Of a stretch of DNA of 64,000 nt, positions 54,650-57,788 are shown piece by piece. The notes under the pieces are model-generated. The model was not told the origin of the DNA and made no database searches. It was given only the letters and a program-made list of their open reading frames with translations. The translations under genes were made by a program, and so were the position numbers. How positions within the stretch are numbered: the stretch's first letter is position 1; every line of letters begins with the position of its first letter. This stretch comes from Plantibacter sp. PA-3-X8 (GTDB taxonomy: Bacteria; Actinomycetota; Actinomycetes; Actinomycetales; Microbacteriaceae): the NCBI RefSeq assembly GCF_003856975.1, contig NZ_CP033107.1, forward strand, positions 1,798,001-1,862,000, in the 5' to 3' direction.

Positions 54650-54739
54650 GGTACCGTGTCCGAGCGGCCGAAGGTGCAACTCTCGAAAAGTTGTGTGCTT
54701 GAAAGAGCACCGTGGGTTCAAATCCCACCGGTACCGCCA
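54650..54739 (+). tRNA. tRNA-Ser(CGA)
   Basis: A 90-nt class II tRNA with encoded CCA. The acceptor GGTACCG pairs with CGGTACC, the anticodon stem-loop holds CGA, there is a long variable arm (TGTGTGCTTGAAAGAGCAC region), and the T arm is GTGGGTTCAAATCCCAC. The discriminator is G. Its last 19 nt recur with one mismatch 1845 bp downstream, marking it as an integration site. Confidence 0.95.
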
Positions 54740-54740
54740 T

Positions 54741-54770
54741 AGAAAACCCCTGGTTGTCCAGGGGTTTTCT
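54741..54770 (+). terminator. Intrinsic terminator after tRNA-Ser
   Basis: A perfect 13-bp stem AGAAAACCCCTGG/CCAGGGGTTTTCT (54741-54753, 54758-54770) with a TTGT loop begins right after the tRNA CCA plus one base. The arms carry A-rich and T-rich ends, so it can work on both strands. Confidence 0.88.
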
Positions 54771-54929
54771 GTATTTCTGGCTGTGGCGTGGTGCGAGCGT
54801 CATGCAGGTCTTCGGACAAGTGTGCCGATCAAGGTTCATTCGGCGGGGTTCGAACGGGGTCAGATCCGACCTCGCATGACGGCTCAGGTGTCGAGGATGT
54901 ACGAAGCTTGAGAAGCGCACTCGGGTGAG

Positions 54930-56108
54930 TCATCGACTCGCCTCCGCAGCAGCCTTCGTGAGCGCGTGCCCCGCGAGGAGCATGATGACGAGAGCGATCG
55001 CTGTCAGCGTCGATGCGATCCAGATCGGAGCGAGTAAGCCCGGCCCGGTCGCGAGCCCGAACGCGCCAAGCACGGGCCCCGCGGCAGCTCCGATGTTCAA
55101 TGCTGCGGTTGCGTACGAACCGCCCATCGTTGGCGCACCCGACGCCGCATACAGCACACGAGTGATCACGGTGCTACCCACGCCGAACGACAGGAAGCCC
55201 TGAACGAAGACGAGGATGATAAGCGCGACGGGATGCGACGCGACCAATGCCAATGCGATCCAGCCTGTCAGCAGCAGCGGACTGCCGACCGCAAGCACGA
55301 CGCCGGGGCGTCGATCCGACAGTCGCCCTGCAATCGTGACGCCAAGGAACGATCCCATGCCGAACATCACCAGCGCGACGGACACCCACCCACCAGCCAT
55401 CCCCGCGGTCTCGGTCACGACGGGTGCGAGGAAAGTGAATGCCGCGAAGGTCCCTCCGTTGATCACCGCTCCAAGTGCCATGGCCAGGATGAGCCGCGGC
55501 TGTGCCAACTGGCTGAGCTCGGCATGAAGCCGTGGCGAGGAAGCGCTTGAATCGGTCTGACCGGCGTTATTCGTGATCCCTCGGATGACTCCGCAGACCG
55601 CCGGAATACAGAGGATTGCGATCGCCCAGAACGTCGTTCGCCAGCCCAGCGCTGTGCCGAGCAAAGACCCCGCGGGGACACCCGCGACGGTTGCGATCGT
55701 CGTGCCGGAGAGCAGGATCGACAGTGCCCGCCCCTTCTGGTTCGCTGGCACGAGGGTAGTTGCCGCGCTCAGTGCTACGGCGAGGAATCCTGCGTTTGCA
55801 AGAGCGCTGAGCACCCGGGTGATGAGGAGGAGCGAGAACACGGGTGTCATCGCTCCGACCACGTGACTTCCCGCGAACACGAGAAGGCAGACGATCAACG
55901 TGAGCCGCGGTGGCCAGCGGCGAGCGAACGCCGCCATTACTGGCGCGCCGATGACCATACCGACCGCGAAGGCCGAGGTCAGCAGGCCGGCCGTGCCGAC
56001 CGAGACGTCAAGCTCGGTCGCGATCGCGGGGAGCAATCCCGCGAGCATGAATTCTGAGGTGCCCATGACGAAAACCGCCAGAGCAAGCATGTAGAGAGCA
56101 AAAGGCAT
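54930..56108 (-). CDS. MFS efflux transporter, Cmx/chloramphenicol-resistance-like
   Basis: A 392-residue major facilitator with 12 predicted helices. The N-terminus LAVFVMGTSEFMLAGLLPAI, the first cytoplasmic loop with ARRWPPRLTL, and the motif-C-like GVPAGSLLGTALGWRTTF are typical of DHA1 drug:proton antiporters, and it most resembles the Cmx/CmlR chloramphenicol exporters of corynebacteria and Streptomyces. The substrate is inferred only. It has codons (CTT, GCT, TTT, ATT) that are rare in the neighbours, in line with recent acquisition. CGGAG lies 9-10 nt before the ATG. A long leader (about 100 nt) may allow attenuation, but no convincing leader peptide was identified. Confidence 0.85.
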   Translation of the reverse strand: MPFALYMLALAVFVMGTSEFMLAGLLPAIATELDVSVGTAGLLTSAFAVGMVIGAPVMAAFARRWPPRLTLIVCLLVFAGSHVVGAMTPVFSLLLITRVLSALANAGFLAVALSAATTLVPANQKGRALSILLSGTTIATVAGVPAGSLLGTALGWRTTFWAIAILCIPAVCGVIRGITNNAGQTDSSASSPRLHAELSQLAQPRLILAMALGAVINGGTFAAFTFLAPVVTETAGMAGGWVSVALVMFGMGSFLGVTIAGRLSDRRPGVVLAVGSPLLLTGWIALALVASHPVALIILVFVQGFLSFGVGSTVITRVLYAASGAPTMGGSYATAALNIGAAAGPVLGAFGLATGPGLLAPIWIASTLTAIALVIMLLAGHALTKAAAEASR

Positions 56109-56565
56109 CGAGTACTCCGAGGTGAGAGATCAAGAAATGGTTCTTCTTGTCACCACGGCCAGTACCCCGGGCACGCCAGAAATACGCGCACACCGATCGT
56201 GGGCGTCGCAACTACTGGTTCACGGGGCTGGCGGTGTGACCGACAACCCCTGGCCTGTCTGACTCGGGACTCGACATGTCCCAAACTCTACAGCGCTCAA
56301 CTGCGCGTGGCGTGGAGCGATCGGTCCCCCTCGGTCCGGCGTCATCCGACCGCGCGTGAGCTGATCTTGAGACGGCGACGCGTCAGCAAAGTCCAATCGG
56401 ACCCGGGTCCTCACGGCAGCGGATCGCATGCGCCGTGGTGCATTTCTGGTGCAGATCTCCCCGTGGACGGGTGCGTGTACCTGTGAGGCGACGCTGGCAT
56501 TTGCGCTGATCTGGCGGGGCTTTTCGCAAGGGCGCGATGGTTTCGTGACGGCGCAAATGGAACTG

Positions 56566-56584
56566 AATCCCATCGGTACCGCCA
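56566..56584 (+). repeat. Direct copy of the tRNA-Ser 3' end (candidate att site)
   Basis: AATCCCATCGGTACCGCCA matches AATCCCACCGGTACCGCCA at the tRNA 3' end (54721-54739) except for one base. It is directly followed by a terminator-like hairpin, as if it were the displaced original tRNA end. Confidence 0.75.
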
Positions 56585-56591
56585 CGATGAG

Positions 56592-56634
56592 GCCCCGTGC
56601 ATCCCCGAGCAACACCGGGACGGAGGGGGCTTTT
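56592..56634 (+). terminator. Terminator-like hairpin after the displaced tRNA end
   Basis: GCCCC (56592-56596) pairs with GGGGC (56626-56630), with an inner CCCG/CGGG stem, followed by TTTT. It could be the terminator that once ended tRNA-Ser transcription before the insertion. Confidence 0.55.
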
Positions 56635-56657
56635 CGGTGCAGGCCCGGCGTCATCCG

Positions 56658-57068
56658 CTAGGGCGCGTCCCGCCGATAGTCGCCGCGCACGACCCAGACG
56701 TCGTCGCCGAACTCCTTTGCCGAGACGCTGATCGGCTGCGGGTCCCAGAGGGTCCCGGGCACTCGTCCGAACTCGACGAGGTAGGTGTCCTCGAACGCGA
56801 CACGCGCTTCACCGATCGGTGGTCGCACGGTGAAGAGAGACCAGCAACCGCCGTTGCCGGCGTTCGTGCATTCGTTCCGCACGCGAAGCAGTTCGGTGCC
56901 CTCCGGGAATTGCATAGCCTCACTCGGCGGCACCGCGGTGCCGCCGAACCGTTCGAAGTCGAGCGCCAGGAGGCGTAGCGGATAGACGTGCATGGCGACG
57001 TCCAGAACAAGAGCCATGGTGATGATGAGCGCCGTCGACCAGGCACGACGACGTGCCCTACCCTGCAT
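56658..57068 (-). CDS. Hypothetical membrane-anchored protein, 136 aa
   Basis: A 136-residue protein with a basic N-terminus (QGRARRRAW), one hydrophobic helix (about 11-30) and an extracytoplasmic domain with two Cys (NECTNAGNGGCW) that could form a disulfide. No family is recognised. The ATG at 57068 follows a purine-rich GGGGGAACT. It lies just outside the tRNA-Ser island and shows GC content between that of the island and the core genome. It is divergent from the 82-residue gene. Confidence 0.65.
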   Translation of the reverse strand: MQGRARRRAWSTALIITMALVLDVAMHVYPLRLLALDFERFGGTAVPPSEAMQFPEGTELLRVRNECTNAGNGGCWSLFTVRPPIGEARVAFEDTYLVEFGRVPGTLWDPQPISVSAKEFGDDVWVVRGDYRRDAP

Positions 57069-57142
57069 AGTTCCCCCGCCCCCGGGTCCAGCCGAAGCTT
57101 CGACCGTACCAGGGGCCGGACCGGTGCTCGGTAGAGTCGAAT

Positions 57143-57391
57143 ATGGCTACCTTCGATGAGGAACGTGACCGAAGCGCGCATCTGCCGACGGGAGAAGCGG
57201 CGCCTCCGAGCCCACCAGGAGAGCCCGAGCCGCCGTTTCAGGCGATCTTCCCGAATCTGGACCGCGTGTCCCGAGACTCGTTGCGGAAGGGCACGTTCAG
57301 TCGCCGCCGAATCATCCGCGCAGCGATCGGGTTTCTGATCGTCGTCATCACGATTGTCGTCATCGTCTGGCTGACCCGGCCGAGCGGCTAG
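57143..57391 (+). CDS. Small C-terminally anchored membrane protein, 82 aa
   Basis: An 82-residue protein with a Pro-rich soluble N-terminal half (about 1-58) and a single C-terminal transmembrane helix (about 60-77), so it is probably tail-anchored with the N-terminus in the cytoplasm. No family is recognised. TAGAGT (57132-57137) ends 5 nt before the ATG. It is divergent from the 136-residue gene. Confidence 0.65.
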   Translation: MATFDEERDRSAHLPTGEAAPPSPPGEPEPPFQAIFPNLDRVSRDSLRKGTFSRRRIIRAAIGFLIVVITIVVIVWLTRPSG

Positions 57392-57464
57392 CCCAGTCTG
57401 AGGGTTCTCAGGCCTGCAGCCGGAACGGTTTCGTTGTTGTGGGCAAGGAATGCCTGCGTCCTCG

Positions 57465-57581
57465 CTACACCCTCCCAATGGTGTTCACGGCTATCCAGAT
57501 GATCAAGGCGATGAGGATCAGGCCAGCGACACTGCCGATGATCTTCGTCGACAATGGACGCTTGTTTGAAGGGGCATTCAT
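57465..57581 (-). CDS. Small single-pass membrane protein, 38 aa
   Basis: A 38-residue protein with a polar, basic N-terminus (MNAPSNKRPLSTK) and one transmembrane helix (about residues 14-33, IIGSVAGLILIALIIWIAV). On the minus strand TAAGAT (57588-57593) ends exactly 6 nt before the ATG, a near-consensus leaderless promoter. No family is recognised. Nothing else is seen in 57582-57788. Confidence 0.65.
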   Translation of the reverse strand: MNAPSNKRPLSTKIIGSVAGLILIALIIWIAVNTIGRV

Positions 57582-57788
57582 GAGCGGATCTTAGCCACCG
57601 CCTCGCGAGCAGCGGCCTACCGTGCTCGGCGCGGACGGTTGGCGTGGGAAGCCGCGCAGATCCGATGAAACACCCGGAATGAAAGACCTCGCGGGGCGGT
57701 AACCGCCGCAGAACTGAAAGACACGGATTCCCAGCGAAGCCCAGGGACACCTCACCTGAGGTTCAGAACGCCGTCGCACAGTGATTCC

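Follow-up and report, generated by a model that had tools for sequence, protein, structure and literature searches.

A single-gene cmx islet at tRNA-Ser(CGA) in Plantibacter sp. PA-3-X8 retains both ends of a family of integrative elements

Here, we describe a 1.85-kb islet at the 3' end of a tRNA-Ser(CGA) gene in a 64,000-nucleotide stretch of Plantibacter sp. PA-3-X8 (contig NZ_CP033107.1, positions 1,798,001 to 1,862,000 of the forward strand; hereafter the window), which belongs to a genome (G000) of 4.08 Mb in a single contig (features in Table 1). An initial annotation, made from the letters of the DNA, had proposed that this tRNA gene served as the integration site of an island with a drug-efflux gene and no integrase. 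Repeat comparison confirmed that the last 19 bases of the tRNA gene recur, with one mismatch, at the right edge of the islet, and the pattern AATCCCAYCGGTACCGCCA has two matches only in the whole genome, which are these two cores, with none for the reversed control pattern. All five bases ahead of the right 19-mer differ from the tRNA. Folding bore out the two terminators that had been proposed: the tRNA end now runs into a hairpin of its own, with a perfect 14-bp stem (-23.9 kcal/mol, z -6.65), and the right core is followed by a different hairpin with TTTT (-24.1 kcal/mol, z -2.24).

Table 1. Features of the islet and its target, in window coordinates. Locus labels L033, L181, L182 and L186 stand for genomes G004, G227, G309 and G083.
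Feature	Position	Strand	Basis or remark
tRNA-Ser(CGA), integration target, 3' end regenerated	54650..54739	+	ARAGORN; Rfam tRNA 48.8 bits
Left core (attL), 19-mer closing tRNA-Ser(CGA)	54721..54739	+	Repeat comparison, genome pattern scan
Terminator hairpin of the incoming element	54740..54771	+	Fold; alignment shows this design in 8 other left ends too
TGGTGC box, +50 after core, proposed left arm-type integrase site	54789..54794	+	Same offset in L033, L181, L182, L186
Second left box position (+61), degenerate here (TCATGC)	54800..54805	+	TGGTGC at +61 in L033, L182, L186
cmx block, 88-89% DNA identity with Tn5564-type cmx loci	54901..56292	-	Homology mostly ends near the edges
cmx, chloramphenicol efflux MFS transporter, 392 aa	54930..56108	-	NCBIfam NF033135 499.2 bits (cut-off 400)
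21-codon cmx leader ORF, MSSPESDRPGVVGHTASPVNQ	56212..56277	-	Start 169 bases ahead of cmx
Paired TGGTGC boxes, -130/-119 before right core, proposed right arm-type sites	56436..56452	+	5/398 genomes including the window's
Right core (attR), 1 mismatch; 5 preceding bases also unlike tRNA	56566..56584	+	Repeat comparison
Displaced original tRNA terminator, weakened stem	56585..56636	+	Fold versus four congeners

Between the cores (54741-56565), cmx is the one recognised gene; its protein is full length and meets the broader NCBIfam model NF033135, with a score against NF000510 (Cmx) of 757.7 bits that falls short of the cut-off of 800. The seven other ORFs within or overlapping the islet (92-144 aa) gave zero family matches in a Pfam scan, and neither gene calls nor profile scans found a recombinase in the islet, so that one clear Cmx-like transporter gene and no recombinase in 1.8 kb both stand as first read. 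The atypical codon use ascribed to the gene is supported by its third-position GC of 0.753 against 0.917 in the neighbouring radA, these two genes being the ones compared. The lower GC reported between the repeats holds against the upstream DNA (about 0.62-0.66 over the islet, about 0.70 upstream) and is not specific to the islet, since the right flank (56500-57750) is as low at 0.61-0.66; low GC alone therefore does not delimit the islet. Just beyond the edges of the cmx block lies a 17-base direct repeat (54783-54799 and 56307-56323, 88% identical), possibly a further integrase box or a chance match.

Six congeneric genomes (G001-G006) were compared at this site. Five of them (G001, G002, G003, G005 and G006) have an empty site, in which tRNA-Ser(CGA) directly abuts a terminator that, measured from the core across 67-83 bases, is 86-92% identical to the window's hairpin at 56585; this is the arrangement that the initial annotation had predicted for an unoccupied site, the tRNA followed by the 56592 hairpin. 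Folded in G001, G003, G005 and G006, the same terminator reaches -30.3 to -34.1 kcal/mol (z -5.2 to -6.0), and the weaker hairpin of the window, taken with the perfect stem now beside the tRNA, fits lost selection on the displaced copy. The remaining congener, G004, is occupied at the same bases by a 13.6-kb island; its two exact cores are separated by 13,557 bases, and it encodes a Mob_Pre/MobV-like relaxase together with a tyrosine integrase. Two findings in relatives had been named as speaking against insertion, the transporter gene at this position in all related genomes with normal base composition, or the right-hand copy in a different arrangement in genomes without the gene; neither was made, because cmx has no ortholog in any of the six congeners (best match 34%), and the empty site is present. 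The proposed layout, a site-specific insertion into the tRNA 3' end, is thus supported by the empty site, the duplicated core and the displaced terminator, and the tRNA gene and its displaced fragment stand in the correct order for an island as set out in the accessible text on Islander (PMC4383910). To the right of the islet, the 136-aa product of 56658-57068 (minus strand) matches neither Pfam nor NCBIfam; the DNA of this region has a 74% identical stretch elsewhere in the same genome (G000:C1:2680612), and in G006 the stretch between the terminator and the next gene is missing.

The islet retains both ends of the G004 element family, which is new here. On the left, a GAAAACCC hairpin and a TGGTGC box at exactly +50 after the core are common to the window, G004, G227, G309 and G083. 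On the right, a pair of TGGTGC boxes lies at -130/-119 in the window, -129/-119 in G004, G309 and G240, and -130/-120 in G117, so that the window's box-to-core distances match those of G004 and G309 within one base; the right ends of G227 and G083 are of another type. Scans of 398 genomes drawn from the family Microbacteriaceae, each with a reversed control pattern, detected a core accompanied by the right pair in five (G000, G004, G309, G240 and G117) and by its control in none. The left pattern occurs in 12 of the 398, eight of which also have the hairpin (G000, G004, G083, G151, G227, G271, G309 and G353) and four of which do not, and by itself it is unspecific, since its reversed control matches 10 genomes. 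Within the 64-kb window, the spaced box pair occurs once on the plus strand (56436) and twice elsewhere on the other strand. The arrangement of direct boxes spaced 10-11 bases apart on both sides of the core suggests that they may serve as integrase arm sites. G353 and G271 have the left end, with neither a second core nor a related integrase found within 19 kb; the G151 contig stops 2.2 kb beyond the tRNA; and a search of G117 over 19 kb showed neither the left end nor the tRNA.

The 19-mer is present in 160 of the 398 genomes, 27 of them with at least two copies (counted from the table), and at least 16 genomes have two copies on a single contig and strand, at spacings from 1.85 to 75.8 kb, of which that of the window's islet is the shortest among the matches listed. 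Besides G000 and G004, 20 stretches from 16 genomes with at least two copies were compared; a G004-related tyrosine integrase adjoins a core in five of these (L188, L190, L192, L195 and L197), whose ends are without the right pair and whose integrases are 46-49% identical to that of G004. The G004 integrase itself is a 374-aa ORF with a full-length match (Pfam 69.1 bits, cut-off 27.1). Its counterparts in G117 (82% identical) and G309 (78-81%, the gene lying between transposase genes) are ORFs without N-terminal parts, leaving G004 as the only one of the five right-pair islands with a full-length integrase ORF; as these two are partial and none was found in G000 or G240, three cases underlie the link between this integrase clade and the boxes. 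Counter to a simple rule, G227 combines the left hairpin and the +50 box with an integrase fragment of only 39.5% identity (129 aa). Among phage records, all 1782 that match the G004 integrase are below 60% identity, with 43% the best among the matches listed. A phage origin of the left end was considered and rejected, as 54690-54930 has no match among 50,697 phage records.

The cargo of the related islands differs from one to the next. The G004 island encodes a cytosine methyltransferase, a BbrUII/HgiDII-type restriction enzyme, a weak helicase match and the relaxase, which scores 75 bits with Pfam Mob_Pre (cut-off 25.5) and 92.9 with NCBIfam MobV, under the cut-off of 100. G309 carries an N6 methylase matching type IIG models, and G117 a KAP NTPase matching PifA.

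The islet is most likely a remnant of an integrative mobilizable element at the tRNA-Ser(CGA) 3' end, resembling a CIME (cis-mobilizable element), which the accessible text of PMC5704250 describes as a decayed ICE or IME that retains attL and attR. A tyrosine integrase would have recombined the tRNA 3' end and inserted a parent element that supplied both a copy of the tRNA end and a terminator of its own, pushing the original end and terminator downstream, by 1.85 kb in the present islet. The parent would have been an integrative mobilizable element resembling that of G004, and a deletion would then have removed its integrase and mobilisation genes and left cmx as the only cargo; derivation from such an element draws on the match of both islet ends to the IME-like G004 island. 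The initial annotation had offered a remnant or a non-autonomous element mobilised in trans, and these options are not fully separable, but a remnant is favoured by the divergence of the right core, by the weakening of the displaced terminator and by a genome that has no matching integrase, its nearest more-than-short match to the G004 enzyme being just 28% identical. The islet is probably immobile now; its mobilisation in trans is possible, though unproven. One point counts against slow decay: the mismatch at every one of the five bases before the attR 19-mer looks more like a single event or a different attP.

The strongest competing account, which we nevertheless consider unlikely, is that a non-autonomous cassette arrived already small, its movement driven in trans by an integrase from a related element that the same cell formerly harboured. 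It draws on G240, from another genus, which has a 5.76-kb island (L231, 219-5999; GC 0.596) at the same tRNA with both ends present, a one-base core variant as tRNA end, left boxes at +51 and +62, and different cargo; an integrase was not found in it, so that it and the window's islet both keep their ends and have no recognised element genes. Against it, no close G004-type integrase exists now anywhere in the genomes of G000 or G240 (the latter a 50-contig assembly), the window's attR is diverged, and the two cases are equally explicable as two independent decays. A more tentative proposal still is that a class of such cassettes exists at tRNA-Ser(CGA) in the family, with fixed arm-site ends and exchangeable cargo (a drug pump, a RES/HEPN module); such cassettes would lack an integrase and depend for their spread on full elements with the same ends, acting in trans. 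The G240 cargo encodes a RES/HEPN protein and, at a Pfam score under the cut-off, a DUF4365-like one; the two genes are a candidate defence or toxin module, and PADLOC gives no match for the island.

It is improbable that a transposon of the Tn5564 kind put cmx beside the tRNA and that the repeat is a separate relic, even though the gene itself has close transposon-borne relatives. The closest full-length DNA placings of the cmx block reach 89.4%, and in pTP10 the Tn5564 cmx block, 88-89% identical to the window's, is flanked by the IS5564 transposase gene and IS1513. The similarity extends about 30 bases beyond the cmx stop, to where the transposase gene begins in pTP10, and that transposase adjoins 22 of 80 cmx loci at 88-100% identity and one more weakly, the 22 ranking among the nearest to the window's by DNA. 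However, the transposase has no match in the whole window, which accordingly lacks the IS5564 (IS481-like) enzyme expected of a Tn5564-type transposon, and such an insertion leaves the element ends, the empty site and the displaced terminator unexplained. Delivery of cmx by transposon into the parent element may well have occurred and is compatible with the remnant reading; with similarity ending where the pTP10 transposase gene begins, the cargo may derive from a transposon unit stripped of its transposase. For soil actinobacteria, Jiang et al. (2017; PMC5467266, accessible text) report cmx as a free gene as well as within transposons. The copy of Arthrobacter sp. MYb214 (L063) was dropped as an example of free cmx, having a transposase relative beside it, and none of the 80 cmx loci has a tRNA-Ser(CGA) gene within the at most 6 kb, often less, available on each side. 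An origin of the 19-mer repeat by chance or from a stray piece of tRNA, as the short and imperfect right copy might suggest, is ruled out by the empty site in relatives, and is opposed by its two matches in 4.08 Mb and the matching ends in other islands.

Read as a remnant, the islet resembles CIMEs as characterised in the accessible text of PMC5704250 in keeping attL and attR (here with one mismatch in attR), in having no integration or transfer genes found and in targeting a tRNA gene 3' end, and differs in its 1.85-kb size and single cargo gene, with no accretion with an incoming element seen. It has the same target and the same left and right ends as the G004 integrative mobilizable element, but the integrase, MobV-like relaxase and BbrUII-type restriction-modification of that island were not found in it, and it is not itself an IME, which has its own integrase and relaxase, both present in G004. 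With Tn5564 and Tn45 (IS481-like transposase plus cmx) it has cmx and the leader in common at about 89% DNA identity, and it differs in having no transposase and in being flanked by tRNA-derived cores instead. The ssrA islands of Dehalococcoides, according to the accessible text of PMC3146451, are likewise site-specific for an RNA gene, and some have no recombinase or integration module, but they use a serine recombinase at ssrA where the islet points to a tyrosine recombinase at tRNA-Ser(CGA). The literature covered, in part, comprises general CIME and IME papers, none of which was recognised as treating islets at tRNA-Ser(CGA). The case shows how a chromosomal islet can consist of one resistance gene known from transposons, and it defines both ends of a family of integrative elements, three other examined members of which (G004, G309 and G117) carry restriction or defence-like genes. 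Such ends let integrase-free members be found that integrase-requiring island finders would skip; Islander, in the accessible text (PMC4383910), looks for an integrase gene inside, and the scans of the islet revealed no such gene.

The leader ORF upstream of cmx starts 7 bases past a TAGAGT box, a spacing from which its mRNA may be leaderless. In a sample of the window and 80 cmx loci, many near-identical, the leader start is present in 81 of 81 upstream regions and the length is exactly 21 codons in 72, and three different stop codons are used among 46 distinct leaders. A published description of this leader was not found in the literature searched. Variation per codon position is 0.166/0.220/0.165, without a third-position excess, which indicates that RNA constraint also acts on the leader. 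Over 56070-56277 (minus strand; MFE z -2.09), base pairing is possible between the first codons of the leader and the cmx ribosome-binding site and start. Across 43 distinct rows, three with misplaced starts, such pairing holds in 83.0% of 559 cells, whereas shifted partners give 25-43%; with shuffled partners the mean is 81.2%, so close that there is almost no covariation, and 0 of 500 shuffles reach 83.0%. This pairing would fit translational attenuation of cmx.
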